In this document: piece after piece, positions 723 to 39,093 of the stretch | Layout: the number at the start of each line of letters is the position of its first letter | How positions within the stretch are numbered: the stretch's first letter is position 1 | Assembly: GCF_003858635.1 (NCBI RefSeq) | Contig: NZ_RQJO01000010.1 | Coordinates: forward strand, 496,001-560,000 | Length of the DNA: 64,000 bases | Origin: Larkinella rosea | GTDB lineage: Bacteria > Bacteroidota > Bacteroidia > Cytophagales > Spirosomataceae | Direction: 5' to 3' | Translations under genes and position numbers: made by a program | The notes under the pieces: generated by a model | The model's database searches: none | The model's input: the letters and a program-made list of their open reading frames with translations, nothing else | What the model was told of the DNA's origin: nothing

Positions 723-1088
723 ATGGATACCCCAAACGATTTTTTAGAAAACCTTCCCGAAACCAACGAACTGCTTGACAATACGCTCGATACGCTCACC
801 AACGGCGTCGATCTGGAATCGGAAGCACCCGATACCAACCTGCTTCAGAAGTGGATCGACGTGTTGAATCAAACGGAAAACACCCAACCCTTGGGCCGTA
901 AATTGTCGGAACTGAACAACGTGTTGACAACAGAATCGCCCGATACGACCACTATTCAGCGGTTACTCAACGAAATTGCCGACGCCACGGAAGAGTTTGG
1001 CGCAAAGGTTGGTCCTGAAGGCGAACTGCCTGCTCAACTGGAAGGACTCGCGGCTGCCTTGCGCAACCTGGGTGTTCAGCTTTCGTAG
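723..1088 (+). CDS. small acidic protein, unknown function
   Basis: A 121-residue soluble, strongly acidic protein with no signal peptide or membrane segment. It is rich in Asp, Glu, Asn, Thr and Leu and should be mostly helical; leucines spaced every 3-4 residues (residues 24-55 and 78-118) suggest a helical bundle. I recognise no domain. It is divergent from arfB (86 bases between the starts) and ends 7 bases before the convergent MarR/GNAT gene. Base composition matches its neighbours, so it looks like a real but uncharacterised gene. Confidence 0.7.
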   Translation: MDTPNDFLENLPETNELLDNTLDTLTNGVDLESEAPDTNLLQKWIDVLNQTENTQPLGRKLSELNNVLTTESPDTTTIQRLLNEIADATEEFGAKVGPEGELPAQLEGLAAALRNLGVQLS

Positions 1089-2135: not shown

Positions 2136-2213
2136 ATAGGAACACGGATTGGACGGATGTAACGGATTTGTACGGATAAAATCAGTTTTAATCCGTCCGA
2201 TCCGTGTTCCTAT
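2136..2213. repeat. 23-bp inverted repeat with 32-bp loop (GAACACGGAT family)
   Basis: Arms at 2136-2158 and 2191-2213 match over 23 bases with a single mismatch; the core of the left arm is GGAACACGGATTGGACGGAT. The right arm contains the TAG stop codon (2210-2212) of the FG-GAP gene. It lies between the start of the MarR/GNAT gene and the end of the FG-GAP gene. It could fold as a transcription terminator, but there is no T-tract, and it looks more like a dispersed palindromic repeat. Confidence 0.85.
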
Positions 2214-3394
2214 TTTACATTCCAGTAGATCAGCACATTCAGCGTTGCCCGGCCGGAAGCGATCAAATCGAGATCGCCGTCGCCGTCCAGATCGGCGGCT
2301 TGCAGGTCTTCGGTCGCCATCATCACGCTATCGTCGAGCGAATGTTCTTTCCAGGTTTGCAGGGTTTTGTCCGGCACAAAAAGACGTACGCCCACTTTCT
2401 TTTCGGCGTTCGGGTTTCGCCAGCCGACGGCAATCTGGTCGTAACCGAGTTTCAGAAAATCCCCGCAAGCGAGCGCGTGCCCCTGGTTTAGTTGCTCGCT
2501 CAGCGTTTGCTGAACGCCGTACATCAGCTTGTTTGATGCATCCGAAATCGGGCCGTTTTTATACACGACCAGTTTGTTACCGTGCATGGGTTCAACAGCC
2601 GCCAGGAACGGAACGCTGCCACCCTGAAAACCGCGACGCACCTCTCCCATTCCGTTTCCGGCCCCAATCCAGCGGTCAATCGACGTCCACTTCCCGTTTC
2701 GATAAGCCAGCGTTTTCCCGCCTTCTTTGCTGCCAATCAGCACCTGGGTTTCGGGGCCATCTTCCCAGATTTCAAAATTATGCGTCATATGCATCGTCGA
2801 ATCGACCAGTTGCATCGGCCACGGGCTTCGCGGATCTTTCGGTTTTTCATACCCCAGGATACGCACACCCCGACCTTCGCCGTTTTTGTTACCCAAACCG
2901 TGTAATGGCACTACCACAAGTTGGTAGCGGTTTGGTGCAATCCGCGCCCAGCGCATCCGGTGCGTCGTTATTTCGTGGTGAAGTCGTACGGATTCCCATT
3001 TCCGCGTGGGATCCGTGGGACGAATCAGGTAAAAAACCGCCCCGGATTTCGTGGTATCGTTCGTTTCGGAAGGGTTCCAGCCCGCGCCGACTGCCACTTC
3101 CACTTTGCCGTCGCCGTCGATGTCACGGGCGGCAATGCAGACATTATCCTGTGGAGTCAAGTCCTGCGCCATAACGTGCCGTTGCCAGGCATCGCCCGGT
3201 TTTCCCGGATTCCGATACCAGACAATGGCTTTCTGGTCGGCCATCAGAATATCCGGTTTTTTGTCCCCATCGACATCACCAATGGCCAACCCGTAGCCAA
3301 TTGCGATCTGATTATCAACGACCTGAAGTTTAAAGTTGGGATTTTGGGCGCAGAGCGGTCCAGCAAGTAGAAAAAACGCGGCTATTTTTTTCAT
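2210..3394 (-). CDS. exported FG-GAP/VCBS repeat protein
   Basis: A 394-residue protein with a signal peptide (MKKIAAFFLLAGPLCAQ) followed by FG-GAP/VCBS-type beta-propeller blades. Calcium-loop-like repeats DVDGDKKPD, DIDGDGKVE and DLDGDGDLD appear near residues 41, 92 and 370. These domains usually mediate extracellular binding or present an enzyme-like propeller; no catalytic residues can be named. It is the last gene of the minus-strand cluster that begins at 10358, 57 bases behind the metallohydrolase gene. The stop codon lies inside an inverted repeat arm. Confidence 0.85.
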   Translation of the reverse strand: MKKIAAFFLLAGPLCAQNPNFKLQVVDNQIAIGYGLAIGDVDGDKKPDILMADQKAIVWYRNPGKPGDAWQRHVMAQDLTPQDNVCIAARDIDGDGKVEVAVGAGWNPSETNDTTKSGAVFYLIRPTDPTRKWESVRLHHEITTHRMRWARIAPNRYQLVVVPLHGLGNKNGEGRGVRILGYEKPKDPRSPWPMQLVDSTMHMTHNFEIWEDGPETQVLIGSKEGGKTLAYRNGKWTSIDRWIGAGNGMGEVRRGFQGGSVPFLAAVEPMHGNKLVVYKNGPISDASNKLMYGVQQTLSEQLNQGHALACGDFLKLGYDQIAVGWRNPNAEKKVGVRLFVPDKTLQTWKEHSLDDSVMMATEDLQAADLDGDGDLDLIASGRATLNVLIYWNVK

Positions 3395-3451
3395 AAAGAA
3401 GAAAGGATGGGTTCGGAACAGGACCTTTCTTCAATATTCGGCATTCGCGAT

Positions 3452-4327
3452 TCAATTTTCAATAGTTCGATCCAAATCCTTTTTTCCGCTCCAGCGTTCC
3501 CCCAATCGCAGCACCTGGCTGGGCGTTCCATACCGCCGGGCTTCGCGGACAAAATTGGCGGGATCTTCGGTATTGAATTCAAACAAATGATAATGATGCG
3601 GAATAACCAGTCGTGCGCCGATTTCTCTCCCCAGCCGGGCGGCTTCTTCGGGATTCAGATTTCCGGCCACGCGCCGTTCCGGTTTATTTCCGTTGATCGG
3701 CAAAAAGGCAATGTCAATGTTAAACGGTTTCAGAATTTCCACCATGCCGTCGTACCACAGTGTATCGCCACTGTGGTAGATTGTCCATGGCCCGGCCTGC
3801 ACGACAAACCCCATGAACTTACAACGGCCCTGGTCGTCGCGTTCAAGTGCATTGTGGGCCGCCGGAACGCCGTGAACCCTAAATCCGGCCACCTCAACGG
3901 TTTCGCCATCGTTCAATCCAATCGGAAAAACCGCATCGCGTTTCACGCGATCCGCCACGAAAAACCGGTTAGCTTCGGGGATCACGAACTGCACGTTCGG
4001 GCTGGCCATGAACAGCGGAATCAGGGTTTCGGCGTCGAGGTGGTCAGTATGATTATGGCTCGACGTGACCACATCGATCATCGTCAGCCGCGACGGATCG
4101 ATAACCAACTCCGACATCCGTACATGCGGCTTATCCGTAGTTTCGTATTTAACCGAAAGTGAATCAGATAGATATGGATCGAACAACAAATATCGCTCCT
4201 GCCATTGAACCAAAAAACCGCTCTGTCCCAACCACCAGACGTGAAGCTGGTCGGGCCGGGAGCGAGCGGTTTCCAGGTCAGCCAGAAACGTTTCATCTTT
4301 TTGAAATGCCGGAATTAATTCCTTCAT
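3452..4327 (-). CDS. metallo-beta-lactamase fold hydrolase, UlaG-like
   Basis: A 291-residue cytosolic protein with the metallo-beta-lactamase motif HxHxDH at H91, H93, D95 and H96 (SSHNHTDHLD), and later metal-ligand candidates in VHGVPAAHNA and IYHSGDT. The N-terminal WWLGQSGFLVQW and FDPYLSDS resemble the UlaG (L-ascorbate-6-phosphate lactonase) branch. Family role: hydrolysis of a lactone or phosphate ester with Mn or Zn. Start MKELIPAF at 4327 fits the family, and the MetE-like gene ends 16 bases upstream. The context of sugar kinase and isomerase genes makes a sugar lactonase plausible, but this is inference. Confidence 0.85.
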   Translation of the reverse strand: MKELIPAFQKDETFLADLETARSRPDQLHVWWLGQSGFLVQWQERYLLFDPYLSDSLSVKYETTDKPHVRMSELVIDPSRLTMIDVVTSSHNHTDHLDAETLIPLFMASPNVQFVIPEANRFFVADRVKRDAVFPIGLNDGETVEVAGFRVHGVPAAHNALERDDQGRCKFMGFVVQAGPWTIYHSGDTLWYDGMVEILKPFNIDIAFLPINGNKPERRVAGNLNPEEAARLGREIGARLVIPHHYHLFEFNTEDPANFVREARRYGTPSQVLRLGERWSGKKDLDRTIEN

Positions 4328-4343
4328 AAAACGGGCGTCTTTT

Positions 4344-5369
4344 TCAATTTCCTCTCACTTTCTTTGCTCCGGCCACCATATTGATCAACTTCTGGCGGGC
4401 GGCCCAGCGGGCGGTTTGACTTAACCCGCAATCGGGTGCCACAGCCAGTTTTTCGGCGGGGATGTATTTCAGGCACGTTTCGATCCGCTCAATGACGTCT
4501 TTGACAGTTTCGATGTAATAATTTTTTACGTCAATAATGCCGACTGCGACGTCCATTTTCCGCGCAAATTCCGCAATGAGCTCAATTTCGTCAAATTCCC
4601 GGTTAGCCATTTCAACGTGCACTTCGTCGACCGACAAATCGAGGAAATCCGGCAGCATCGGGTGAATTTTTCGGTAGCCGACCGGACGGCCTTTGAAATT
4701 CCCGAAACAAAGGTGCGTGGACAGTCGGCATTTGCCAACCACCGGCGCGACCGTTCGATTGAAAATATCGACAAACCGCTTCGTATCTTCCTTGTACGCA
4801 TAACACGACATTGAGGGCTCATCGACGGTAATTTCGGTGCAGCCAGCCGCCACCAGATCCTCCAGTTCTTGCCGCACAATCGGCAGGAGAGCTTCCGTAA
4901 TGTCGTACCGATCCTGGTAGCGGTCGTTGGGCAACATCCGGCCACTCAGCGTATACGGGCCGGGAACGGATGCTTTCAGGACCGGGCCCGCCGGAGCCAG
5001 CCGTTTCAGCCGCTCGTATTCGTTGACCACGCCTAAACCGTTTGGAGCCGTCAACTCCTCTGCGATCGAATGCTTACCGCGCTGATCGTGGGCGGGTGGA
5101 CCAAATTTGCGGGTTTCAGAATGATTGGGTTTCAATCCTTTGATGTAGCCGTAAAACGACAGATTGAAGTCCAGCCGGGTTTGTTCACCGTCCGTAATAA
5201 CGTCCAAACCGGCCTCCGTCTGGTCGTGAATGGCCGTTATGACGGCGTCGTTAATCATTTCCTCAATGTCGGCCGCGCCAAATTTATCGAGGTTCTGGGA
5301 CGCAAATTCTAACCAGCCTGGGAAGGGGTAACTTCCCATGACGGTCGTGCGGATGGGGGTCGGTTGCAT
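4344..5369 (-). CDS. MetE C-terminal-like (cobalamin-independent methyltransferase family) protein
   Basis: A 341-residue protein equivalent to the catalytic C-terminal half of methionine synthase MetE. The zinc ligands are kept: H219 and C221 (THLCFG), E253 (HVEMANREF) and C314 (APDCGLSQT). Opening residues TTVMGSYPFP and ITDGEQTR are typical of the stand-alone MetE-like group. It lacks the N-terminal folate half of MetE, so it may use another methyl donor or have a different C-S or C-O bond reaction. Its first 61 bases overlap the end of the phosphotriesterase-like gene, which suggests translational coupling. Its place among sugar genes argues against a housekeeping role. Confidence 0.85.
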   Translation of the reverse strand: MQPTPIRTTVMGSYPFPGWLEFASQNLDKFGAADIEEMINDAVITAIHDQTEAGLDVITDGEQTRLDFNLSFYGYIKGLKPNHSETRKFGPPAHDQRGKHSIAEELTAPNGLGVVNEYERLKRLAPAGPVLKASVPGPYTLSGRMLPNDRYQDRYDITEALLPIVRQELEDLVAAGCTEITVDEPSMSCYAYKEDTKRFVDIFNRTVAPVVGKCRLSTHLCFGNFKGRPVGYRKIHPMLPDFLDLSVDEVHVEMANREFDEIELIAEFARKMDVAVGIIDVKNYYIETVKDVIERIETCLKYIPAEKLAVAPDCGLSQTARWAARQKLINMVAGAKKVRGN

Positions 5370-6307
5370 GTATAGAGTCGTTTTGGTGTATCAATGAATA
5401 CGTTTTGAACATAATTTGCTAAATCCAGTCGCCTGAGATCGTCGCAGAACGTGGTCAGCAGCCACGTTAAACCCGGTTTTCCGCCGTACGACTGCCAATA
5501 TGTATGGCGAGCCGCGTCCATGCCTACGGTAATCTGATCCGGGAACTCGGGCAACAGTGCTTCCAGGAGTCGATACGTTCCATTGAGTTCGCCCGCTTTC
5601 CAGCGAAAACCGCTGTCGTACTCGACCCGAACACCGGTTTTTAAAACCGCCCGATGGTAGTCCATGTCCTGATTCCGATCAACGTGCGAAATCACAACGT
5701 GCGACAAATCCGCACCGAGTCGATCGAAAAGTTCGGCCTGTTCCAGCGCAAACCGCCCTTCGTTGGTATGCGTCAGAATCGGGATTCCAGTGGCCCGATG
5801 CGCGTTCACAACCGCTCGAAAAACCGTTTTCTGATGTTCCGTGAACGGTTCGTCGCCGGTCGCCAACTTGATCAGACCGGCCTTACACGGTGTGCGTTCG
5901 ACAATCGGGCCGCTATAATCGAATCGGTCAATTCCCTCTTCAATATCAGCCATGAACAGCCTCGTCAACTGGTCTTCCGAATACCGAAACCGCCAATGAT
6001 CGGGCGGGTAATATTTTTCCAGGTGAATGCCCGTTGGTGCCAGAATCTGAATACCGGTTTTCCGCGACACCTCCGCCAGTTTCAGCACGTTCCGGCCACA
6101 ATTGGCGGGCATGGTATCGACCATCGTCCGGCCACCCGCGTCATAAACCCGCTGCAGCTCTTTCGAAATTTTAACGACATCATTCAGCAAAAAATCCGGG
6201 TTGCTGCGCGTCGGAAAGCTTTCTTCGATCACAATATGCTCGTGCGAATAGGTAACTCCCATTTGCTCCGGGTCGATGTCACCTAAAACTGTTCTGACAA
6301 AACTCAT
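5309..6307 (-). CDS. phosphotriesterase-family amidohydrolase (PTE/PHP-like)
   Basis: A 332-residue TIM-barrel metal hydrolase. All binuclear-centre residues of the phosphotriesterase family are visible: H22 and H24 (SHEH), the carboxylated lysine K147 (GLIKLATGD), H180 (LTHTNEG), H208 (ISHVDR) and D264 (GMDAAR). Members hydrolyse lactones, phosphotriesters or, in some sugar operons, phosphorylated lactones or N-acetyl groups. The fold ends near residue 313 (FIDTPKRL); the last 19 residues lie in DNA shared with the MetE-like gene and look like read-through rather than conserved protein. It sits 130 bases downstream of the FAD oxidoreductase gene. Confidence 0.88.
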   Translation of the reverse strand: MSFVRTVLGDIDPEQMGVTYSHEHIVIEESFPTRSNPDFLLNDVVKISKELQRVYDAGGRTMVDTMPANCGRNVLKLAEVSRKTGIQILAPTGIHLEKYYPPDHWRFRYSEDQLTRLFMADIEEGIDRFDYSGPIVERTPCKAGLIKLATGDEPFTEHQKTVFRAVVNAHRATGIPILTHTNEGRFALEQAELFDRLGADLSHVVISHVDRNQDMDYHRAVLKTGVRVEYDSGFRWKAGELNGTYRLLEALLPEFPDQITVGMDAARHTYWQSYGGKPGLTWLLTTFCDDLRRLDLANYVQNVFIDTPKRLYTCNRPPSARPSWEVTPSQAG

Positions 6308-6437
6308 CCCTGACTATGATTGCGGTGATTCCGTTTGATTACAGCGATTGACCTGCGGTGATTGTTTATGAAAAGGTGAAAGTGAGGATGAGAGATCTCA
6401 GTTGATCGAATCATTTTATCACTGTAATCACCGTCAA
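6308..6437. repeat. intergenic region with imperfect inverted repeats
   Basis: The 130 bases between the FAD oxidoreductase stop and the phosphotriesterase-like start hold related inverted strings: GCGGTGATT occurs at 6324-6332 and 6354-6362, and the opposite-strand form TGTAATCACCG at 6422-6432. This can fold into a long imperfect hairpin and could act as a processing or attenuation site inside the operon. No coding potential was seen. Confidence 0.45.
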
Positions 6438-7787
6438 TCATTGCCAATCCCCGTACTCATAGTCCCCGGATTCCGGCACGTCCAAAACCGCCCCGATTCG
6501 GCACAAATCACCTTGTAATACACTCACATTTAATTGATTAGATGCTTCGTCATTTACGAGCGATTGCACAGCCGCCAGCCCCGCAGCCTGGCCCATCGAC
6601 ATGGTCTGGGCCATCGACCGGCACGATGCGTGAGCGTCGTGCGTCGCCGAAAAACACCGCCCGACAACCCAAACCGTCTGGCTGCCTTTCGGAACAATGG
6701 TGCCATACGGAACTCCGTAAACACCCGCGCCCGGAATATATTCCCAATGCGTTTCGTCTTCGCCATTCTGCCCTTGCCGATGATCTTCGATCGGCGCTCC
6801 GCAGAGAAAAATCCGGTCCGTCGGCAGCTTGCCCGACAGGCATTCTTCTTTCGTCAAGCGATGTTCACCGTAGACGCGCCGGGTTTCGCGAACGCCAATC
6901 TGGTGCGATAACCCAATGATGTTCGATTGGGAAAAACCGGGAACTGCATCGCGGAAAAACGCTTCGTAAACAAAGGCTTGCCGACGGCCTTCCACTTCGG
7001 CCAACGTCAAGTCTTCGGCATCGAGTGCTGAAAAACCAGTTACTTTTACGGCAACCGTCGACACACAACCTTTTGCGTTCATTTTGTGCGCCGAACCTTC
7101 CTTGCGGGGCAGTGCGTGCTTCCCGGTTTCGACGGCAATCCGCATTTTCTCGGCCAGCATTTTCTTACCGCCTTCGCGCTCATAGACATCCAGATCGACG
7201 TTACTCATCCGAAAGGTTGTCGTCATGCTTTGGGCAGGTTCGTACTCACCGGCCGTTTCGTAGGCAAAACCGGCCAGGTGACAGAAATCGGCGTCGCCCG
7301 AGGCATCAATGACCCGGCGGGCGATGACCTTACCAAAACCGCCTTTATTCCAGAAAATACCGACAAACCGCTCCCCGTCCTGATCCACATCGACCAGCGT
7401 AGTGTGCAGCAAATACCGAATACCGCCTTGCAGAATCAGCTGATCCCACACCCGTTTCAACCGTTCCGGATTGTAGTTGACGCCGGTTCCTGCGCCGTAG
7501 GTGTTGGGACGCAGAAACAGGTCTCCGGTTTTGCGAAGTTCGTTCACCACGCGATCGGGCCAGCCGCCAACGACTTTGCGCGGGCTGGCACCGGGGGTGA
7601 AAAAACCGTAAAACGTATCCAGCATCTGCGTAGACGTTCCACCCGGAAAACCGTATCGTTCCACCAGCATCACCGAAAACCGTTGCTGATTGGCAGCCGC
7701 CAGAGCCGCCACGCACCCCGCCGACCCGGCCCCAATGACCAGAATATCGGTTTCTGCAATGAGCGGTATGTGGAGGTGGTTCAGCAT
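6438..7787 (-). CDS. FAD-dependent oxidoreductase (FAD_oxidored family), cytosolic
   Basis: A 449-residue flavoprotein. The N-terminal Rossmann motif GAGSAG is at residues 19-24 (ILVIGAGSAGCVAALAAA), a second conserved patch is VIDASGDADFCHLAGF, and the C-terminal VVGRCFSATHDAHASCR is the typical FAD_oxidored (PF12831-type) signature. There is no signal peptide, so it acts in the cytosol, unlike its paralogue at 37599-39065. Substrate is unknown; oxidation of a sugar or polyol hydroxyl is a reasonable guess from context. Its start lies 3 bases behind the SIS gene stop, so the two are tightly coupled. Confidence 0.87.
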   Translation of the reverse strand: MLNHLHIPLIAETDILVIGAGSAGCVAALAAANQQRFSVMLVERYGFPGGTSTQMLDTFYGFFTPGASPRKVVGGWPDRVVNELRKTGDLFLRPNTYGAGTGVNYNPERLKRVWDQLILQGGIRYLLHTTLVDVDQDGERFVGIFWNKGGFGKVIARRVIDASGDADFCHLAGFAYETAGEYEPAQSMTTTFRMSNVDLDVYEREGGKKMLAEKMRIAVETGKHALPRKEGSAHKMNAKGCVSTVAVKVTGFSALDAEDLTLAEVEGRRQAFVYEAFFRDAVPGFSQSNIIGLSHQIGVRETRRVYGEHRLTKEECLSGKLPTDRIFLCGAPIEDHRQGQNGEDETHWEYIPGAGVYGVPYGTIVPKGSQTVWVVGRCFSATHDAHASCRSMAQTMSMGQAAGLAAVQSLVNDEASNQLNVSVLQGDLCRIGAVLDVPESGDYEYGDWQ

Positions 7788-7790
7788 AGC

Positions 7791-8582
7791 TTACCCACGG
7801 ACAAGGGTCGATTTTCCAACCTGCGCGTACAGGTTGGCCAGGCGGTGGGCGTGTTCGTCATAGGCCGCTTCGAACAGTTCCGTAGCGCGTTCGGAGCCAA
7901 CGACGACACCCGCCGTCAGAACTTTGGGCGGATGCCCGGCTTCGGTAAGCAGCCGGGCCAGTTCGGCTTTGATGCTATTGATAATCAATGCCCCGCCGAC
8001 CGTGCTGCCGGGCGCAACCGGCGTGTCCAGTCCCGGGACTGATACCATTGCGTCGCCAACGGGAGCGCCGGTATCCAGAATCAGATCGGCAAAGTCGCTC
8101 AGTTTCAAGCCGTCCTTTCGTTTGCTGGTACTTGGGTCCGAGTGTTCTTTCGTAATTAAAGCGACCACTTTTACGCCCCGTTTCTGAAACTCCTCCGCCA
8201 TTTCGATCGGCACGACGTTGCAGCCGCTTGACGAAATGACCAGGGCGGTATCCTGATCTGAAAGATCATAGTTGCGGAGGATTCGTTCGGCCAATCCGGA
8301 GACGTTCTCCAGAAACATCGCCTGACGTTGGCCGTTGGCTCCCACCACCAGATTGTGAAAGGTCAGCGACAGTTCGACAATCGGGTTGAAACCGGGGAAC
8401 GAACCGTAGCGCGGCCACATTTCTTCCACCATAATCCGGCTGTGTCCTGATCCGAAAACGTGAACCATCCGGCCCGCCAGGATCGTATCGGCAAACCATT
8501 GGGCGGCTTGCTGCAATTGCGTCGTTTGCCGTTCAACCGTGTCAATGAGCTGGCGGCATTTTTCTAAATAGCTATTTATCAT
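7791..8582 (-). CDS. SIS-domain sugar isomerase-like protein
   Basis: A 263-residue protein with a sugar isomerase (SIS) domain. Visible motifs are HVFGSGHSRIMVEEMW (residues about 40-55), the phosphosugar loop VISSSGCNVVPIEMA (about 130-144), and SVPGLDTPVAPGSTVGGALI before the C-terminal helices. SIS proteins of this UPF0309/MurQ-like type isomerise or cleave phosphorylated (amino) sugars or sense them. It lies 9 bases downstream of the ROK kinase gene and 3 bases upstream of the FAD oxidoreductase gene, so kinase and isomerase probably act in sequence on one sugar. Confidence 0.87.
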   Translation of the reverse strand: MINSYLEKCRQLIDTVERQTTQLQQAAQWFADTILAGRMVHVFGSGHSRIMVEEMWPRYGSFPGFNPIVELSLTFHNLVVGANGQRQAMFLENVSGLAERILRNYDLSDQDTALVISSSGCNVVPIEMAEEFQKRGVKVVALITKEHSDPSTSKRKDGLKLSDFADLILDTGAPVGDAMVSVPGLDTPVAPGSTVGGALIINSIKAELARLLTEAGHPPKVLTAGVVVGSERATELFEAAYDEHAHRLANLYAQVGKSTLVRG

Positions 8583-8591
8583 AGGGTTATA

Positions 8592-9482
8592 TTAATACAT
8601 TTCATCCCCGACAAAACCGGCAGCACCAATAGCTCCGGCCCAGTCCTCAAAATGGGCCTTCCGAATTGCGGTTTTCTTACCCGCCGGACGCCATTCAAAC
8701 ATGTCCAGATAGGCTTCCAGCGGTCCGAATAAAGCATCGCCAGCCTGCATAATTCCTCCACCCAACACCACTACTTCCGGCGAAAAAGCATTGGCAAAAC
8801 CGGCAATTGTCACGGCCAGTTGCCGAACCGAGGTCAGCCAGACCAGTGTGGCCAGCGGCTCGTTTTTCCGGTACGCATCGACCAATTCCTGCGTGGTTTG
8901 GTACCGACCATACGACCGCCGTAAAACCGTTGCATTACCAATGGCATCTTCCAGATTACCGGGCATGTTCGTGATTCCCAACTGATTGCTCCCCGAATCG
9001 ACCGTTACATGACCCAAATGACCCGCCATCTGGAAATAGCCCTGATGCAGCTTTCCATCGACCAGCAGCCCTCCGCCAACGCCGGTTCCGAGCGTAAGCA
9101 TCAGGGCATTTCGAATACCTTTGGCGGCTCCGTACCGGGCTTCGGCCATCAGAGCGGCATGCGCATCGTTCAAAACCCGAACCGGCGTGTTCAAATAGTC
9201 CGACCAGATGAAACCTTCCAGCCCCGGCAATCGGCCCGGCATGCAGGCAATGGCATCGTTGGCGGGCGTTGGCAGACCCGGTGCCGATAAACCAACGCTC
9301 AATTCCAATCCGTTGGCCGCAATTTTAAGTTGCTGAAACGTTTCGGCAACCGCCTGTTTCCATTGTCCGTCCTGCCCGTCATTGGTCGGACAGACGACCC
9401 GGTGCAAAACCGTACCGGTTTCGGTTTCGATCAGGACGCCTTTGATCCGGGTGCCGCCAATGTCGATGCCAATTGCGTTCAT
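8592..9482 (-). CDS. ROK-family sugar kinase
   Basis: A 296-residue ROK protein with the ATP phosphate-1 motif DIGGT at residues 7-11, the catalytic Asp D106 (VLNDAHAALMAE) and the phosphate-2 loop LGTGVGGGLLVDG (131-143). The ROK signature region keeps GHLGHVTVD, but the usual zinc-binding CxCGxxGC cluster is absent; the equivalent stretch (about 165-177) reads SNQLGITNMPGN. It has no N-terminal HTH, so it is a kinase rather than a ROK repressor. Likely role: ATP-dependent phosphorylation of a hexose or amino sugar before the adjacent SIS protein acts. SDR gene upstream, SIS gene 9 bases downstream. Confidence 0.88.
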   Translation of the reverse strand: MNAIGIDIGGTRIKGVLIETETGTVLHRVVCPTNDGQDGQWKQAVAETFQQLKIAANGLELSVGLSAPGLPTPANDAIACMPGRLPGLEGFIWSDYLNTPVRVLNDAHAALMAEARYGAAKGIRNALMLTLGTGVGGGLLVDGKLHQGYFQMAGHLGHVTVDSGSNQLGITNMPGNLEDAIGNATVLRRSYGRYQTTQELVDAYRKNEPLATLVWLTSVRQLAVTIAGFANAFSPEVVVLGGGIMQAGDALFGPLEAYLDMFEWRPAGKKTAIRKAHFEDWAGAIGAAGFVGDEMY

Positions 9483-9490
9483 TTCTTTAA

Positions 9491-9560
9491 CGGTTTACGG
9501 TATTCGGTTACTGACGCACACAAAAAACGCGTCAGCGACCGAATACCGAATACTGTATAC
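9491..9560. repeat. intergenic palindromic repeat (CGGTATTCGG..GACGC family)
   Basis: Arms at 9498-9517 and 9529-9548 pair over 20 bases with two mismatches (left arm CGGTATTCGGTTACTGACGC). The string ATACCGAATAC is then repeated towards 9567. A related element lies at 47120-47231. It occupies the whole gap between the ROK kinase start and the SDR stop, so it is transcribed within the operon. Confidence 0.8.
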
Positions 9561-9566
9561 CGAATA

Positions 9567-10358
9567 CTAATATTGTCCCTCGCTCACCGACCAGCCGCCG
9601 TCGACGGCCAGAATTTGTCCGGTGGTAAACCGGGAATAATCGGACATAAAATACACGGCAGCCCCGTCCAGATCGTTGGATTGACCAATGCGACCACGGT
9701 CCAACGGTTGTTTGGTAGCAATAAAATTCAGAATGGTTTCGTCGTTTGCCGCGCGCTGTGCCATTGGCGTTTCCACTAACCCGGGCGCTAATACGTTGAC
9801 TCGAATGTCATTATGGGCGTAATACGCGGCAATGGATTTCGTAAAACCGATGATTGCGGCCTTGGTTGCCGCGTATGCGTGCGTCGCAAAATACGTTGGC
9901 GAGGGCGAATAACCCAGGACCGAGCCCATGTTCAGGATCGATCCGCCCGTATTCTGCTCCTGAAACGCATGAACAGCCGCCTGGTTCGATAACATCAGCG
10001 ACGTCAGGTTCAGTTCAAACGTTTTATTCCAGCCTTCCAGCGTTAGTTGGTGCAACGGGCCATCGCCAAACCGCCGACCACTGCCACCTGCCACATGATA
10101 CAAGCCATCAAAACCGCCAAACTCGCCCTGGCAAATGGCAATGGCCGAAACTGCCGTGGCCGGATCGGTGGCGTCGCCGTTGAGGGCAATACCGTAACCG
10201 CCCAGCTGCGCTTCAGCCGCTTTGCAACTTTCTTCATTTCGACCGACCACCACCACCCGTGCGCCCTGCCCAACAAAGGCATGAGCCGCCGACAGGCCCA
10301 AACCGGTCGTTCCGCCAACAATCACAATCCGCTTATTGGCCAACCAAAGTTGATCCAT
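9567..10358 (-). CDS. SDR-family oxidoreductase
   Basis: A 263-residue classical short-chain dehydrogenase. The cofactor loop GGTTGLG is at residues 15-21, the NAG-like motif is replaced by VAGG at 89-92, and the catalytic set is S146, Y162 and K166 (AYAATKAA). The C-terminus has the usual GQILAVDGGWSVSEGQY ending. It should reduce or oxidise a hydroxyl of a sugar-like substrate with NAD(P). It is the first gene of the minus-strand cluster and is divergent from the GntR gene, 130 bases apart, so it is the probable main target of that regulator. Confidence 0.88.
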   Translation of the reverse strand: MDQLWLANKRIVIVGGTTGLGLSAAHAFVGQGARVVVVGRNEESCKAAEAQLGGYGIALNGDATDPATAVSAIAICQGEFGGFDGLYHVAGGSGRRFGDGPLHQLTLEGWNKTFELNLTSLMLSNQAAVHAFQEQNTGGSILNMGSVLGYSPSPTYFATHAYAATKAAIIGFTKSIAAYYAHNDIRVNVLAPGLVETPMAQRAANDETILNFIATKQPLDRGRIGQSNDLDGAAVYFMSDYSRFTTGQILAVDGGWSVSEGQY

Positions 10359-10422
10359 TTTATAAAAAAAGTAGAATGAATTAGAGGTAACGAAGGTATA
10401 AAGGCAATTTCAGTATTCCTAT

Positions 10423-10440
10423 AACTTATTATAATAAGTT
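10423..10440. promoter_or_regulatory. perfect 18-bp palindrome, candidate GntR operator
   Basis: AACTTATTATAATAAGTT is identical to its reverse complement. It lies between the divergent SDR gene (start 10358) and GntR gene (start 10489). It sits directly upstream of, or over, the -33 region of the gntR promoter, whose -7 candidate TATACTTG is at 10461-10468. Position and symmetry suit a dimeric repressor controlling both directions. Confidence 0.75.
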
Positions 10441-10460
10441 TCAGATCGGACAGATTTTCG

Positions 10461-10468
10461 TATACTTG
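10461..10468 (+). promoter_or_regulatory. candidate -7 box of the GntR gene
   Basis: TATACTTG differs from the Bacteroidota -7 consensus TAnnTTTG at one position and lies 20 bases before the ATG at 10489. A clear -33 TTTG is not seen; the palindrome at 10423-10440 occupies that place. Confidence 0.45.
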
Positions 10469-10488
10469 CTCACCAACCTCTATTCTCT

Positions 10489-11220
10489 ATGAACGAACGT
10501 CCAACCCGCATTCCCCAGTATCAGTATTTGTATGAATCACTGCGCCAGCAAATTATCCGTGGCGACTTTAAGTCGGGCGATTTGTTACCGTCCGAAAAAG
10601 ACCTTCAGAACCAGTTTCGGCTGACCCAACCGACGATCCGGCAGGCACTGGGACTTTTGGTGCAGGACGGATACATCCGCAAACATCAGGGTAAAGGCAG
10701 TATTGTGCAACCTCTACCGATTGGATTGGGCGTCATGTCGATTGTCGGCCGGCTGGCCAATACCGCCAATACGACCCGGGCCGAACGGATGACGACCACC
10801 ATTCTGACCAAACCCCGGCTGCATCCCTACCCGGACGATTTTTTGTTTACGCCAACTGAAGAAGACAGCAAAGTCGGTTTCTACTACATTGAGCGACTCC
10901 GGGCGATGGAAGACGAACCGGTTTTTTACGAAAAAATTATTTTACCCAACCGGTACCTGACCGGCTTTTCCCGGCAGCGGCTCGAAAACCGGTCGCTGTT
11001 CGATTTGCTGCGCGCCAAATACGGTTTGCTGGTGAAAGGCGGAGAACAAAAAGTGCTGGCCGTCACAGCCGACGGGGAGTTGTCGAAGCAGTTGAATGTA
11101 TCCATCGGCAGCCCGTTGCTCCGACTCGACAAACGGCTCGACACCAACCGCCCCGATTTCAGTTTCTATTCCTCGCTGTATGCTAAAACCGACAGTTACA
11201 TCCTGCACGGACGATTCTGA
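10489..11220 (+). CDS. GntR-family (HutC/UTRA type) transcriptional regulator
   Basis: A 243-residue regulator. Residues about 10-75 are the GntR winged helix (LRQQIIRGDFKSGDLLPSE and QPTIRQALGLLVQDGYI), and residues about 95-240 form a UTRA ligand domain (YYIERLRAMEDEPVFYEKI). HutC/UTRA members sense phosphorylated sugars or amino sugars. Divergent placement from the SDR-ROK-SIS-FAD cluster, with a palindrome between, suggests that it represses that cluster until a pathway intermediate binds. It converges on the histidine kinase gene with a gap of only 2 bases. Confidence 0.92.
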   Translation: MNERPTRIPQYQYLYESLRQQIIRGDFKSGDLLPSEKDLQNQFRLTQPTIRQALGLLVQDGYIRKHQGKGSIVQPLPIGLGVMSIVGRLANTANTTRAERMTTTILTKPRLHPYPDDFLFTPTEEDSKVGFYYIERLRAMEDEPVFYEKIILPNRYLTGFSRQRLENRSLFDLLRAKYGLLVKGGEQKVLAVTADGELSKQLNVSIGSPLLRLDKRLDTNRPDFSFYSSLYAKTDSYILHGRF

Positions 11221-12905: not shown

Positions 12906-14099
12906 CTATGTCAAATCGCGTTCCAGAATCCGGCCGGTTTGCTTGTCTTTCAGAATGACTTTGTGCCGCCCGTCGTGCGTTACTTCTTCCTTAATCAGGT
13001 AAAAATCCTCGTCGTAATCGACCAGCGTCGATTCCTGCGTCAAGCCTTCACGACCCCGCCAGACCGGCAGATGAACCGATTCCCATTGTTTGGTTTCGGC
13101 CGAACGGTATGCCGCATCCAGCACGGCATTGACCACGTAGCCGTCGTAAAACGTTTCAGCGGGTTCGTGTCCTTCATCGGCGGCATTGAACATATCCGTA
13201 AACATGTGGTTATACCCCAGATCATTCACCTCATCGCCAACCGGAAACAGCCAGCCCGACGTACTTTCGGCTTTTTCGGCTACGTAGTCGGCCCCTTTTC
13301 CGCTGGTATACATTTCAAAACCGGTGCGCAGGAAGTTATTGATCCAGATCGTTCCTTCGGTTCCCATCACCTCGTCGCGCAGGTCCATTCCGCCCCGGAA
13401 CGTCCAGCTTACTTCAAACTGACCGATGGCGCCGTTTTCGTATTTCACGAGCGCAATGGCGTGATCTTCGGCGTCGATGGGTTTCACCTGCGTGGCCGCC
13501 CAGCACATCACCTCGACCGGTTTTACGTCTTTTCCGATGAAATTTCGGGAAATTTCGACACAATGACAACCCAGGTCGAGCATGCAGCCGCCACCGGCCT
13601 GCTCCTTGTCCCAGAACCAGTCGCTGTGCGGCCCCGGATGGGTTTCGCGCGATTTGGCCCACAAAATCCGACCCAACGCACCGTTTTTAACACTTTCCAG
13701 GGCTTTCAAAAACTTGGGGGTATAGCATAGATCTTCGAGATATCCGGCAAAAATTCCGGCTTCCTCGACCGCCTTCATCATGCGCAACGCTTCCTCACCA
13801 TTGCGGCCCAGCGGTTTGGTGCTCACGACGGCTTTTTTATGTTTGGCACAGAGCAAGACGGCAGCCTCGTGGAGGTTGTTGGGTAAGGCAATACAAACCA
13901 TGTCGACTTCCGGGTTGGCAATCACGGCTTCCATATTCGTTCCCCAGATGGAACAACCGTAGTCGGCGGCAAATTTTTGAGCGCTTTCTTCCCGGCGGGC
14001 GTAAATAGCTACCACGCGGTCACGGCCCCGTTGACCGTGGATGGATTCGGCGTAGAACCGGCCAATGAAACCGGAACCCAACATTGCAATTTTTCGCAT
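12906..14099 (-). CDS. Gfo/Idh/MocA-family oxidoreductase
   Basis: A 397-residue NAD(P)-dependent dehydrogenase with an N-terminal Rossmann domain ([12 protein letters not shown] at residues 7-18), the family lysine motif as TKPLGRN (near residue 96) and a C-terminal alpha/beta domain (about 130-350). Asp and His residues of the catalytic region appear in [15 protein letters not shown]. These enzymes oxidise or epimerise sugars and polyols such as inositols. It has no signal peptide. The last 40 residues ([20 protein letters not shown]) form an additional tail. Upstream lies the promoter region shared with the divergent His-rich protein gene. Confidence 0.9.
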
Positions 14100-19352: not shown

Positions 19353-20291
19353 CTAGACCGTAAAGTTATCGGATTCGACGTAGGCTTTGATCAGCGCGAT
19401 TTCTCCTTCTTTACCCGGCTGGGAATTCCCGTGTTCCATGCCCCAGATAAACTCCTTGTTATCGGCTTTGGCTTTTTCGTAACAGTGCTTAAAAATGTTC
19501 TTGTAATTGATTTCGCCCGTCGTTGGCTCCTTCCGGCCCGGATTGTCGCCAATCTGGAAATAACCGATTTCGCTCCAGCACCAGTCGATGTGCGGAATCA
19601 CGTGGCCTTCGTTTTTCTGCATGTGGTACACATCAAACAGAATTTTACAGGCCGGACTGTTCACCGCGCGGCAGATTTCGTACGTCTGATCGGAGGTACG
19701 CAGAAACAGGTTGGGGGTATCGCTCAGCGGTTCCAGCACCATCGTCAATCCGTGCGGAGCCAGAATATCAGCCCCCCGACGCAAGGCGTCGATGACGTGG
19801 CCGGTTTGGATACCGATGGGCAGATTGCGCTGAAAATCACCGGGAACGACCGTCATCACTTTTGTATTCACACGCTTGGCTACATCCACCGCCCGCTTGC
19901 AGCCGTTCAGAAAAATATCGACGTAATCTTTGTTACCTGCCGCGAGGGTGTTTTGTCCGTTCCCGCCTTTATCGACCACAAAAACGCCCATTTTCATATT
20001 CAGGCGCGCCATTTCCTTCGCAATTTTTTCCTGCTCCTCAACCGGTCGGCCCATCATCCCGTTGTCCTCGATCGCCTGAAAACCGTTGTCAGCCATGAAC
20101 TTGAGCTGATCGATCACGTCTTTTCCGGCGCTGTTGGTAAACATGCCGAAGTGGGGCGCATACAGCAATTTGAACTGGTTTTTAGCCACTGTCCGGGGTT
20201 GTGAAGACTCGTTTCCGGCCATTGCCTTACCGGTCAATGCGGCACCGGCAAGACCTAACGTTGATTTAACAAAATCGCGACGTTGAATCAT
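19353..20291 (-). CDS. exported sugar-phosphate isomerase/epimerase-like TIM barrel
   Basis: A 312-residue AP-endonuclease-2-like TIM barrel (hydroxypyruvate isomerase/xylose isomerase-like). Residues 4-10 (RRDFVKS) and the hydrophobic STLGLAGAALTGKAMAG form a Tat-type signal, so it should act outside the cytosol as a folded, metal-containing protein. Metal-site candidates are VLEPLSD, ILFDVYHMQ and FIWGMEHG. The family isomerises sugars or keto acids; some exported members act on glycosides in 3-keto-sugar pathways. It is 15 bases behind the propeller/cytochrome gene and is probably in one operon with it. Confidence 0.87.
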   Translation of the reverse strand: MIQRRDFVKSTLGLAGAALTGKAMAGNESSQPRTVAKNQFKLLYAPHFGMFTNSAGKDVIDQLKFMADNGFQAIEDNGMMGRPVEEQEKIAKEMARLNMKMGVFVVDKGGNGQNTLAAGNKDYVDIFLNGCKRAVDVAKRVNTKVMTVVPGDFQRNLPIGIQTGHVIDALRRGADILAPHGLTMVLEPLSDTPNLFLRTSDQTYEICRAVNSPACKILFDVYHMQKNEGHVIPHIDWCWSEIGYFQIGDNPGRKEPTTGEINYKNIFKHCYEKAKADNKEFIWGMEHGNSQPGKEGEIALIKAYVESDNFTV

Positions 20292-20305
20292 AATAGGGAA
20301 GGTTT

Positions 20306-23300
20306 CTATTTTCTTTTTAAACTTGATAAGTAATCCACTAAATCCACCAGTTCCTGCGTCGACATGTTTTCCTGCAAACCGGAAGGCATCATCGACGCAT
20401 CCATTTGCTTCATGGAGGCCACGTCGCTCATCTTGTAGTTCGTGACCACGCCACCCGGAAACTTCATTTGCAGGTCGGTTTCCGTTTTGCTGGAAATGAT
20501 TCCCGAAACCGTGCTGCCATCCTTGAGTTTCACCTCGAAGCCTTCGTACCCGAAGCTGATCCCGGCATCCGGGTAGAGAATCGACAAATACTGGCCTTCT
20601 TTCGGCAATTTGCTACCAATTTCGGAAAGCTTGGGCCCAAAATCCATGCCTTCGCCGTTGATCTGGTGACAAATTGAACAGTTCGTTTTGAAAAGCGCCA
20701 CACCCCGGCTGGCGTCGCCGGTCATGGCCAGCAGGTCGGGAATGGCCGGTAATTTCTTGCCTTCGGCTCCTTTCGCGCCATCGAGGTAACTGGCGGCTTC
20801 CATCCGGACCTTTTTCCGCCAGGTGGTGCTAACGCCCTGCACGGCTGCGGTTTTGTATTCCGGCTTAATCTTGCCTTCCCGCAACAAGGTCAGAATCAGG
20901 GTCTCGCCGTCGTTGCTGCCACCAATGGCGCGGGTGGCTTCTTTCCGCAGCAGGGCCGGGCGGTTTTCGTCGAGGGCCACGGTTTGCAGCATATCGAGCG
21001 ATTCTTTACTGCCCACCCAACGCAACGCCGAGATCATTCCGAGAGCGGCATCCTGATTGCTACCGTTGACGATTTCCCAAACCATCTTGCCACCACCCTG
21101 CTTCAGCAATTGCCGGGTGGCATCGCGGCCGATCAGATCGTTCGGTTGTTTTTTACTCAATTCGAGCAACCGCTGGTTTTCGGCAACGGGTTCATACCGC
21201 ATCACCATTTCCATGTATTCGGGTTTGCCGTAGGTTTCGTCCAGTAATTTGGTCAAAGCCGCCATCGCTTCCGGCGTTTTCTTCACAAAATCCTGATCGA
21301 GGTGGCGCAACGCCAGTTTCGTGATCTGAACGTCGTTCGGGTTGTTTTTTAACAAAGTCAGTAGCGCACTCGATTTTTCGGTCAAGCCGGGGTTGAAATC
21401 GAACGCCCGGAAATACCGCAGACGCCCCGTCAGATCGGTTTTTGAATCGCCCGCCAGACTGGCCAGCAGCGGTACGGATTCTTTGGTACGCGCCCGCCAA
21501 ACAATGTCTTTTCCGGCATCGGTCGCCGTCGGATTCGCTCCGGCCCGTTTCAGCCACGCGCTGTAATACGAATCCCACTGACCGTCGGCCCCAATACCCA
21601 GAGCCTCCAGATACCAGCGATCTTTGCCATCGTGTTTGGCGGCCAGTTGCGCCCACAAATCCGGTGCTTCCGGCGATTTATTCCGGCGCAGAGCAATGGC
21701 GCATTCCCGACGCACCTGCGGATCAGTATCGTTTATCAATTGCTTCACGTACGGAATAACGTCGGTTTTCAGTTCGCGGGCGGCCCGCAAACCAGTGATG
21801 CGCAGATTCGGATTCGCATCTTTCAGGGCGGTTTCGATGTATTTTTTCCCTTTCCCGTCCAGCTTGCTCAACAGCCAGAGGGCGCGGGCTTTCATGCGCG
21901 GATCGGGGGAAGTGGCATACAATTTCGCCAGGTCTTTTTCGGCTTTGGCACCCAGATCGTGCAGTTTGTTCCAGGCCGCCGACCGGATCGCCATGTTCGG
22001 GCTTTGCAGGGCTTCAATCGCTCCGGCGGTGGTTGCCAGATCGACCTTCGGAATTTTATACGGCGTATTTGGTGGAGCGACGCGATAGACCCGGCCCCGG
22101 TTCAAATCGCCAGCCTGGTGCCCACCCACTCCGGGATCGTACCAGTCGGAAATAATGAGCGAACCGTCGGGTGCGACGCACACATCCGAAGGCCGGAACC
22201 ACTGGTCACGAGCACCTTCCAGCAGCGGCACAATCGTCGCTTTATAGCCCGCGCCGTCGTTCGTTACGGGATACGACCGAACAATATTCGGACCCGCATC
22301 GCAGTGAATAATCTGTCCCTGAAACACTTGCGGCAATAATTTTCCTTCGTAAAGAATAATACCCGTGGGCGAACCCGCGCCGGTTTGCAACAGATTCGGC
22401 ACCACGCCGGGGTCGTTCAGGTGCCAGTGTTGCAGCGGAATGGTGGGTTCCAGGTTGGTCCGGTTGACGCGCCAGCCCGCGCCGGTCATTTCGTCGGTAT
22501 ACCCGTAGTTGCCGTACTCCATCACGTAGTTGATCCGCACGCCCTTGTTGCCATCATCGTCGTTGTCCGACTGCCACATGGTTCCGTACGAATCCAGCGC
22601 AACTTCGTAGTTGTTCCGGAAATTCTGACCGAGCACTTCCATCTCGCTGCCGTCGGGATTACACCGAAAAACCATGCCCTGCCGGTAGTTTTTCAGGTCA
22701 ATTTCCTTACCGGTATTGCGGTCGAAAATGGCTTTGCCATCTTTGTCCCTGATTTGCTTGCCTTCGTTTCCAAAGTTGAAATACCACTTTCCATCCGGTC
22801 CAAACAGAAAAGAGTGGAGACCGTGATCGTGGTCCGCTCCGCTGATCCCCGTAAATAACAGCTCTTTTTTATCGGCTTTATCGTCGCCGTTTTCATCCGT
22901 AAAAACGTACACGTTCGGGCTATCCGACACAATCACCTTGTTGCCCTGCACCCAGACGCCGAGCGGTGAAACCAGTTCGGGCCCCTGGTAAAATACCTTG
23001 CTGATGTCGGCTTTTCCATCGCCGTTGTTGTCTTCCAGAATCAGAATGCGATCTCCCTCGGGGCGGGTGGCACTACCGGTAATATTCGCCCGGTAATTAT
23101 AGGCTTCACACACCCAGACGCGGCCCCGCGCATCGACGTCGATGTTCGTCGGATTGCTCAGCATCGGTTCCGAAGCGAAGAGGGTAGCTTCCAGTCCCGG
23201 TGCCACATTCAGGCTCCCTACCGCATATTTCGGATCGTGTTTGTCATCATCCGAAAGTCCGGCAAAAAGCCGGTCGAGGTACGCGCCGGAAGCCTGGTTG

Positions 23301-23416
23301 AGGTTGTCGTTTTGCCAGGCGCCAACCAGAACGCCCCCAATGATAAGGCCGGCCGTAGACAGGGCTATCGCCCGGCGAGACATCCGGAATAGAGATGAAT
23401 AACGAGTTGAGTTCAT
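20306..23416 (-). CDS. PVC-type propeller / HEAT repeat / cytochrome c protein
   Basis: A 1036-residue exported protein. After an N-terminal membrane anchor or signal (RAIALSTAGLIIGGVLVGAW) come a glucose/sorbosone-dehydrogenase-like beta-propeller (about 60-450; membrane-bound dehydrogenase domain), HEAT repeats (about 460-840; NLRITGLRAARELK, DPQVRRECAIALRR) and a C-terminal haem domain with CSICH at about 913-917 and MMPSG as possible distal ligand. Such proteins are thought to oxidise sugars or alcohols and pass electrons to the haem. The ATG at 23416 is preferred; 36 residues of in-frame extension to 23524 do not look like a signal. It is followed by the exported isomerase gene. Confidence 0.87.
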   Translation of the reverse strand: MNSTRYSSLFRMSRRAIALSTAGLIIGGVLVGAWQNDNLNQASGAYLDRLFAGLSDDDKHDPKYAVGSLNVAPGLEATLFASEPMLSNPTNIDVDARGRVWVCEAYNYRANITGSATRPEGDRILILEDNNGDGKADISKVFYQGPELVSPLGVWVQGNKVIVSDSPNVYVFTDENGDDKADKKELLFTGISGADHDHGLHSFLFGPDGKWYFNFGNEGKQIRDKDGKAIFDRNTGKEIDLKNYRQGMVFRCNPDGSEMEVLGQNFRNNYEVALDSYGTMWQSDNDDDGNKGVRINYVMEYGNYGYTDEMTGAGWRVNRTNLEPTIPLQHWHLNDPGVVPNLLQTGAGSPTGIILYEGKLLPQVFQGQIIHCDAGPNIVRSYPVTNDGAGYKATIVPLLEGARDQWFRPSDVCVAPDGSLIISDWYDPGVGGHQAGDLNRGRVYRVAPPNTPYKIPKVDLATTAGAIEALQSPNMAIRSAAWNKLHDLGAKAEKDLAKLYATSPDPRMKARALWLLSKLDGKGKKYIETALKDANPNLRITGLRAARELKTDVIPYVKQLINDTDPQVRRECAIALRRNKSPEAPDLWAQLAAKHDGKDRWYLEALGIGADGQWDSYYSAWLKRAGANPTATDAGKDIVWRARTKESVPLLASLAGDSKTDLTGRLRYFRAFDFNPGLTEKSSALLTLLKNNPNDVQITKLALRHLDQDFVKKTPEAMAALTKLLDETYGKPEYMEMVMRYEPVAENQRLLELSKKQPNDLIGRDATRQLLKQGGGKMVWEIVNGSNQDAALGMISALRWVGSKESLDMLQTVALDENRPALLRKEATRAIGGSNDGETLILTLLREGKIKPEYKTAAVQGVSTTWRKKVRMEAASYLDGAKGAEGKKLPAIPDLLAMTGDASRGVALFKTNCSICHQINGEGMDFGPKLSEIGSKLPKEGQYLSILYPDAGISFGYEGFEVKLKDGSTVSGIISSKTETDLQMKFPGGVVTNYKMSDVASMKQMDASMMPSGLQENMSTQELVDLVDYLSSLKRK

Positions 23417-23731
23417 AAACGACCCGTAAAGTTGAGGGTTGGAATAAATCGTGTAAATGTAGTAATAAAACCCAAAAAACCGCTTAGCAGCAAGAGAAGT
23501 CAAACGGATCAAAAAACTCCTCATTCAGGCTCGTATTCAGCGCTAATTTCTGTCTATTTACCGGATGTAGTCGCCGATACCGACTCTTTCAGCGATTTTT
23601 AGCCGACCCCACTCACGCCGGTATCCTATTCCGGGTGAACGGCCAGAAATCGCGGGGCTCCTACCCGATTTAAAATGAGAAAAGCCGACGCTTTTGCGTC
23701 GGCTTTTCAGGACCGATTCGATTGGGGGCGC
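23417..23731. other. intergenic region, promoter of the cytochrome gene and terminator of the SusCD locus
   Basis: Contains a possible 36-codon upstream extension of the cytochrome gene (to 23524), which I judge non-coding, and a terminator hairpin at 23680-23707. The rest shows no gene. Confidence 0.55.
23680..23707 (-). terminator. intrinsic terminator of the first SusCD operon
   Basis: Perfect 12-bp arms AAAAGCCGACGC (23680-23691) and GCGTCGGCTTTT (23696-23707) with loop TTTT. It lies 25 bases after the stop of the last gene at 23732; the A/T ends allow termination in either direction. Confidence 0.88.
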
Positions 23732-39065: not shown

Positions 39066-39093
39066 GATGAGTTCGCTGGTAAGTTGGTAGAAA

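Follow-up and report, generated by a model that had tools for sequence, protein, structure and literature searches.

The window analyzed here is a 64,000-nucleotide stretch of the genome of the soil-type bacterium Larkinella rosea (NCBI RefSeq assembly GCF_003858635.1, contig NZ_RQJO01000010.1, positions 496,001 to 560,000 of the forward strand). It contains a compact gene cluster in which a GntR/UTRA regulator is divergent from minus-strand genes for an SDR dehydrogenase, an ROK sugar kinase, a SIS protein, a flavin adenine dinucleotide (FAD)-dependent oxidoreductase, a phosphotriesterase-family (PTE) hydrolase, a MetE-like protein, an UlaG-like hydrolase and an FG-GAP protein. This cluster is almost certainly a conserved functional unit, whose core comprises the SIS gene plus a MetE-UlaG module, a FAD-PTE module or both, and its conservation is well above chance expectation. 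We tentatively interpret the unit as part of a GntR-controlled catabolic regulon distributed over two compartments, in which the MetE-like protein would perform a demethylating step.

Conservation and extent of the unit

Co-occurrence was assessed in 59 relatives, on all of which both the SIS search and the MetE alignment search were run, and in a phylum set of 395 genomes of Bacteroidota. Among the relatives, SIS is found in 27 genomes and MetE in 26, with both present in 25 (Fisher p = 2.8e-13; 2e-10 if the window's genus counts as a single entry); this merging is the only way in which the p-values take descent into account, deeper kinship being uncorrected. The two SIS-only relatives are a distant 36% match and a 78%-complete genome, and the single MetE-only relative is a genome that is 66% complete. 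Across the phylum set, which holds SIS in 33, MetE in 23, UlaG in 18 and FAD in 12 genomes, the same association reaches p = 5e-20. The earlier note on this DNA had named a lack of conserved co-occurrence in related genomes as the finding that would speak against the unit; the test was run, and the unit survived it.

UlaG occurs in 25 of the 59 relatives, which are the MetE set minus G012, and never without MetE (p = 9e-16); the two genes lie no more than about 5 kb apart in 14 of these 25 and farther apart or on separate contigs in 11, where linkage is still possible for the draft assemblies with separate contigs. FAD is found in ten relatives, every one of them with SIS. In the phylum set, SIS accompanies UlaG in 18/18 and FAD in 12/12 genomes, and MetE is likewise present in 18/18 UlaG genomes; MetE without UlaG is limited to five genomes, namely G012 and four with distant matches that also lack SIS (G062, G072, G256, G299). 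Where the identity of SIS to the window's protein was measured (30 of the 33 genomes; G238, G132 and G302 left out), all 23 genomes at 35% or above carry MetE, FAD or both, and all seven below 34% carry neither, a line that was picked after inspection of the table. As to the genomes left out, G238 has FAD, G302 has MetE and UlaG, and G132 has none of these.

A MetE scan of genome contigs, from which the best 80 of 544 confirmed matches were kept, extended the comparison to 50 wider loci with upstream flanks of 5 kb or more and downstream flanks of 4 kb or more, neighbors being counted within 8 kb of MetE. SIS and SDR are each present in 47 of these loci, ROK in 44 and UlaG in 43, followed by NagB-type deaminases (13), Gfo/Idh dehydrogenases (10), and FAD, PTE and Rieske enzymes (6 each). 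No SIS is listed for 14 of the 80 loci; the genomes of ten were searched, and seven hold SIS elsewhere. The same search found no SIS in G062, G072 and G299, and L105 has SIS in its locus. In the divergent lineages L222, L223 and L225 (45-63% identity), the order is SIS-Gfo/Idh-UlaG with MetE about 12 kb away, and L181 reads GntR-SIS-SDR-FAD-MetE-PTE, with weak matches for SDR (38%), GntR (25%) and PTE (32%). Against plasmids, MetE matched 424 records, none of which reached 60% identity (best 32%) and all of which are general members of the family.

The earlier note had described a compact gene set with a divergent GntR regulator, and its nine open reading frames, their coordinates and domain assignments were confirmed. 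The GntR gene (10489..11220, plus strand; PF00392, PF07702) faces away from the SDR gene (9567..10358; PF13561) across a 130-bp gap, and the minus-strand series continues with ROK (8592..9482; PF00480), SIS (7791..8582), FAD (6438..7787; PF12831, 301 bits), PTE (5309..6307; PF02126), MetE-like (4344..5369; PF01717), UlaG-like (3452..4327; PF12706) and FG-GAP (2210..3394; PF13517). The intergenic gaps from SDR through FG-GAP are, in order, 84, 9, 3, 130, -61, 16 and 57 bp, the negative value marking the overlap of the PTE and MetE-like reading frames. In a close genome (G004), the GntR-to-FG-GAP proteins are 89-98% identical to those of the window.

FAD-PTE and MetE-UlaG are two modules, found separately or joined. 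The arrangement SDR-ROK-SIS-MetE-UlaG is common among the loci; SDR-ROK-SIS-FAD-PTE without MetE is carried by plasmids of Spirosoma and Persicobacter, and a Haliscomenobacter plasmid has an SDR-SIS-FAD-PTE set without MetE and with no ROK among the genes listed. Five measured genomes of the phylum set (G218, G227, G175, G391, G368) combine SIS and FAD with neither MetE nor UlaG, and the two modules are joined in seven of the nine genomes of the window's genus (G001 and G005 lack FAD) and in Pareuzebyella (L105).

The window's cluster merges the two. The boundaries drawn in the earlier note require revision at both ends. The FG-GAP protein, an exported FG-GAP/AUDH-type beta-propeller (PF22301 36.9 bits, cut-off 27), was rejected as a core member and is a peripheral, lineage-specific accessory: among the loci of 28 relatives, tblastn finds it in 9, namely L037 and eight from the window's genus, and it occurs in 6/50 wider MetE loci. 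Conversely, the unit extends past the original cluster to a Gfo/Idh dehydrogenase gene (12906..14099, minus strand), matched in 14/28 relatives' loci and in 10/50 wider loci and encoding a protein about 62% identical to those adjoining SIS and UlaG in L182, L222, L223 and L225, and to a distant pair of genes for a DUF7133/cytochrome-c protein and an exported TIM barrel.

Additional genes accompany the unit in part of the loci. Gfo/Idh proteins with a signal-like start, a 3-keto-disaccharide hydrolase and TIM barrels occur in some, a TIM-barrel gene lying within the operon in L031-L034 but not in the window. A subset of operons (L100:6477-7688 and ten other loci) contains an inserted Rieske oxygenase related to glycine-betaine/stachydrine demethylases, which comes with an MFS transporter and often with a NagB-type deaminase. 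Several Cytophagales have a penicillin-binding transpeptidase-domain gene (PF00905) between ROK and SIS (L044:9029-9883 and similar; 8 rows of cluster k22, some genomes counted twice). Small proteins of about 110-160 aa, apparently one family, are encoded in one to several adjacent copies beside the cluster in the window's genus (window 723-1088; L273 16393-17909; L278 3270-4474).

Candidate operator and second locus

A perfect palindrome, ACTTATTATAATAAGT (10424..10439, no strand), lies beside the GntR gene within the GntR/SDR gap. Of 12 such gaps examined, 10 have it unchanged, L045 has it with one mismatch and L037 lacks it; since nine of the ten exact gaps come from the window's genus (the window included) and only the tenth from Spirosoma plasmid L188, the palindrome is kept partly through shared descent. 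Shuffling the gap sequence 2000 times produced a perfect 16-bp palindrome in 13 cases, and the site is the sole match within the window at up to 3 mismatches, with 0.07 expected. When 29 genomes were searched for the pattern, allowing one mismatch at most, 13 of them had sites; the reversed pattern, used as control, gave 0-2 matches per genome and strand.

In this search, every one of the nine genomes of the genus (G000-G008) proved to have a second locus, where a pair of sites is spaced by exactly 78 bp; in G008 both copies have one mismatch. In the five of the nine genomes that were read, the gene for an exported AP_endonuc_2 TIM barrel runs into one copy at its 3' end, and the other copy falls in the interval from this gene to a same-strand DUF7133-HEAT-cytochrome-c gene, which, given these positions, is most likely the gene that the sites serve. 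The DUF7133 and TIM proteins of this locus in the window's genome have homologs just after MetE-UlaG in the flavobacterial loci L105 and L129, with identities of 56-61%, compared with 38% for the window's own DUF7133 paralog. In L105 the MetE-UlaG-DUF7133-TIM gaps are 8, -1 and 19 bp; L129 has an additional reading frame between the TIM and DUF7133 homologs, only the DUF7133 gene was found in L108, and the pair precedes SDR-ROK-SIS-FAD-PTE in L173 and L050. The palindrome sites and the gene order elsewhere are therefore two independent pointers to the same genes, and suggest that the palindrome is a candidate GntR operator and the DUF7133 locus a second member of the regulon.

A possible third member, consisting of Gfo/Idh and 3-keto-disaccharide-hydrolase-like genes beside a one-mismatch site in G003 and G006, was dropped, since their counterparts in the genome of the window lack a site even when 3 mismatches are allowed. 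Of the one-mismatch sites in G001 and in G008, one per genome was read, and these two adjoin dissimilar genes; one-mismatch or exact sites also occur in G038, G043 and G044, all genomes without SIS. No palindrome of at least 14 bp was found upstream of MetE in L105 or L129. In L108, the stretch between GntR and MetE has a perfect 16-bp palindrome (9875-9890) that differs in sequence but shares the ACTT...AAGT ends and is possibly a local operator. Within the window, a paralogous TIM barrel (PF01261) and DUF7133/HEAT/cytochrome-c gene (19353-23524), about 5 kb beyond Gfo/Idh, lie near a SusD gene (26400-27896) and may form another sugar-oxidation locus.

Predicted functions and proposed pathway

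The MetE-like zinc protein (341 aa) corresponds to the catalytic domain alone, without the folate domain. It is not a two-domain MetE (79 bits, TIGR01371 cut-off 930), it scores 216.7 bits against the cut-off of 406 for core methionine synthase PRK04326, and it falls below the cut-off of every NCBIfam methionine-synthase model matched. H219, C221, E253 and C314, which we take to be the zinc ligands, are invariant in 17 aligned rows, and S13, E62 and D183, presumably the homocysteine anchors, align with the same residues in the genome's own MetE. All 17 rows, with identities as low as 34%, have Lys132 and Arg144, the latter of which in our assignment stands at the position of the folate-stacking Trp of MetE. 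An AlphaFold2 model (predicted local distance difference test, pLDDT, 84) best matches 3rpd ('B12-independent methionine synthase') and MetE catalytic domains, and also matches uroporphyrinogen decarboxylases (template modeling, TM, score ~0.55-0.62). An enzyme with homocysteine as methyl acceptor is consistent with these residues, a possibility that falls short of probable.

The SIS protein, called an isomerase in the earlier note, belongs instead to the UPF0309 family (PRK02947, 273.2 bits, cut-off 135), whose characterized member NagS (SCO4393, Streptomyces) is an N-acetylglucosamine (GlcNAc)-6-phosphate dehydratase restricted to Streptomycetaceae according to the available part of PMC12680351. 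There, H53, R64, E94 and D179 of NagS are reported as essential, S54, S119 and S121 as phosphate-binding, and S91 and N228 as sugar contacts (PMC12680351). The essential residues correspond to H47, R58, E92 and D177 of the SIS protein, invariant in 13 aligned rows, and the three serines are retained in the alignment; the two sugar contacts are replaced by Met89 and Val226. With the catalytic and phosphate residues kept and these contacts changed, the protein is likely a 6-phosphosugar lyase (dehydratase) acting on a different sugar.

The two hydrolases had been termed lactonase-type, a description that holds at the family level and fails at the equivalog cut-offs. For the PTE-like protein, the best equivalog is the phospho-furanose lactonase NF045706 (181.3 bits against 630), and the nearest solved structures are 3pnz and 3msr; its histidine and lysine motifs are present, presumably in a metal-related role. 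The UlaG-like protein, of metallo-beta-lactamase fold, scores 55.4 bits against 306 (NF008688) and 85 against 144 for another model, and NAPE-PLD outscores UlaG among its PDB matches. The FAD enzyme is predicted to catalyze an oxidation ahead of a lactonase; its fold search was uninformative (model pLDDT 69, TM at most ~0.35). The best subfamily of the SDR is glucose 1-dehydrogenase, below cut-off (176 against 215 bits). ROK has H-x-GH instead of E-x-GH in 82/84 rows and the CxCGxxGCxE motif in 0/84 (some genomes counted twice); three aligned glucokinases have E where ROK has the H of H-x-GH, a motif that we take to be typical of N-acetylmannosamine (ManNAc) kinases. A phosphonate or phosphotriester sugar, one of the substrates proposed in the earlier note, was rejected: no phosphonate enzyme occurs among the annotated neighbor families, the PTE is nearest to lactonases, and the score of GntR does not reach the cut-offs for PhnF and PhnR. 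The best guess is still a sugar that is methylated or forms a lactone, as that note also proposed.

Membership, co-occurrence, operator-like sites and residue conservation rest on sequence; all of the reactions, compartments and the substrate of the following pathway are what we infer. The input is probably a 3-oxidized sugar, because Gfo/Idh, TIM barrels and a 3-keto-disaccharide hydrolase occur in some loci and because there are precedents for the oxidation-elimination-hydration-reduction of sugars (available parts of PMC7676230 and PMC10628242). Outside the cytoplasm, the DUF7133/cytochrome-c dehydrogenase and the exported TIM barrel would act on a sugar or glycoside, which they would oxidize, probably at C3, and either cleave or rehydrate. 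In the cytoplasm, the Gfo/Idh and SDR dehydrogenases would tune the oxidation state, ROK would phosphorylate the sugar, and SIS would eliminate a group from the 6-phosphosugar in a NagS-like manner to give a 2,3-unsaturated furanose. The FAD enzyme or the SDR would then oxidize the anomeric carbon to a phosphorylated 1,4-lactone akin to ascorbate 6-phosphate, an intermediate whose occurrence we consider evenly balanced, and a PTE-type or UlaG-type hydrolase would open the ring. Finally, the MetE-like protein would move a methyl group from this acidic phosphorylated intermediate onto homocysteine, so that the substrate would be a methylated sugar; the enol ether of an ascorbate-like lactone is suggested as an adequate methyl donor for a zinc thiolate. 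That the MetE fold has been turned to demethylating such a lactone is rather doubtful; if true, methyl groups removed from sugars would enter the methionine cycle with neither folate nor vitamin B12 involved.

Several points weigh against this pathway. The methyl donor is hypothetical, ordinary sugar methyl ethers being poor donors for a zinc thiolate, and genomes with SIS and FAD but without MetE-UlaG would confine the methyl step, if real, to one module. FAD is present in only 6/50 MetE loci, so that elsewhere the oxidation step would rest on SDR alone, and the resemblance of the PTE-like and UlaG-like proteins to lactonases is distant and at the family level. The double sites follow most of the TIM gene, which adjoins them and is not clearly under their control. 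The NagB-type deaminases (13/50) and the Rieske enzyme of the N-demethylase clade (6/50) hint at an amino sugar. Besides the two altered sugar contacts, SIS relatives 26-36% identical to NagS have negligible or no GlcNAc-6-phosphate activity according to the available part of PMC12680351.

Alternative readings and relation to known systems

The rival explanations differ chiefly in what the MetE-like protein would do. It is unlikely that a 3-keto-hexose is phosphorylated and C1-oxidized to a 3-keto-hexonolactone 6-phosphate, an isomer of ascorbate 6-phosphate, which UlaG would open and the MetE-like protein, as a zinc lyase or decarboxylase, would convert to a pentulose 5-phosphate with no methyl transfer. 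UlaG as an almost constant partner of MetE, the 3-keto-type genes in the regulon and neighborhoods, and the match of the fold to uroporphyrinogen decarboxylases favor such a route; the zinc- and homocysteine-holding residues of MetE are nevertheless all retained, and we know of no MetE-family member that acts as a lyase. Thiol addition to a reactive unsaturated intermediate, for detoxification or as a carrier, is improbable. Epoxyalkane:coenzyme M transferase, which adds a thiol to an epoxide, offers a model, and both the zinc-thiol fold and the electrophilic enones expected if SIS eliminates would agree with it, but no thiol-conjugate processing family is among the annotated recurrent neighbors, no search having been aimed at such families. 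A core methionine synthase sitting by chance in a sugar operon is very improbable: 3rpd is the best structural match, but the presence of the gene tracks SIS and UlaG in distant lineages, and this explanation was set aside because the genome holds a full MetE and MetH.

An amino-sugar route bears on the substrate as well. The earlier note had pointed to a phosphorylated (amino) sugar, and what emerges is one regulated and conserved unit for the catabolism of a sugar that is probably phosphorylated; the amino form is retained as a rival that we judge unlikely, on a par with the 3-keto lyase route. The substrate of SIS would be a hexosamine 6-phosphate with an N-acyl or N-methyl group, dehydrated to a furanose of the chromogen-I type; this furanose would be oxidized, opened and deaminated, the MetE-like and Rieske enzymes stripping N-methyl groups. 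The H-x-GH motif of ROK, with its presumed ManNAc-kinase link, agrees with this, as do plasmids of Martelella and Planococcus on which a relative of SIS lies close to nagA or nagB, a GxNGHIGFNEP motif in 20/20 NagB-type proteins and a GbcA-like Rieske enzyme (361 bits, under its cut-off of 670). The chemistry of NagS, as given in the available part of PMC12680351, also fits. Against it stand the minority of MetE loci with NagB or Rieske genes and the altered GlcNAc-6-phosphate contacts of SIS; for some of the lineages, the two accessory genes suggest that the sugar is an amino sugar.

Vaguely named genes here become a defined regulon with a candidate operator, a core and a second locus. The regulon links poorly understood families (UPF0309 SIS proteins, DUF7133 cytochromes and MetE-like singletons), and both a new MetE-fold reaction and a new fate of 3-oxidized sugars may be sought in it. 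Elsewhere in the window, a sialic-acid-type acetylesterase (PF03629) adjoins another FAD oxidoreductase of family PF12831 and a pair of SusD/TonB receptor genes (36193-43990), and a protein with a Hint (intein/hedgehog-type) module (PF01079) is encoded at 47233-48225.

To our knowledge, the cluster fits no known sugar pathway. Among the matches listed in the open-licence literature searched (titles and abstract starts), neither the gene set nor the MetE-UlaG pairing is described, which upholds the earlier proposal of a candidate for an undescribed pathway; the component families are already known, and their combination and the MetE-UlaG pairing are apparently new. The core methionine synthases MesA-D and MetE share the catalytic domain and zinc ligands with the window protein, which differs in its place in a sugar regulon, in the invariant Arg in place of the folate Trp, and in its scores below the model cut-offs. 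Mes proteins also lack the folate domain, according to the available part of PMC7857596. NagS shares the UPF0309/SIS family, the four essential residues and the three phosphate-binding serines, but has Ser and Asn where the window SIS has Met and Val. The phospho-furanose lactonases 3pnz and 3msr are the closest solved relatives of the PTE-like protein, set apart by its score, and UlaG, the L-ascorbate-6-phosphate lactonase, has the fold of the UlaG-like protein, which is far under the cut-off. The levoglucosan (LgdA/B1/B2/C) and O-glycoside beta-eliminase pathways combine Gfo/Idh and TIM-barrel sugar isomerase-like proteins, as the proposed regulon may; in the available parts of their descriptions, however, they end in free glucose and include no SIS, MetE-like or phospholactonase step (PMC7676230, PMC10628242).

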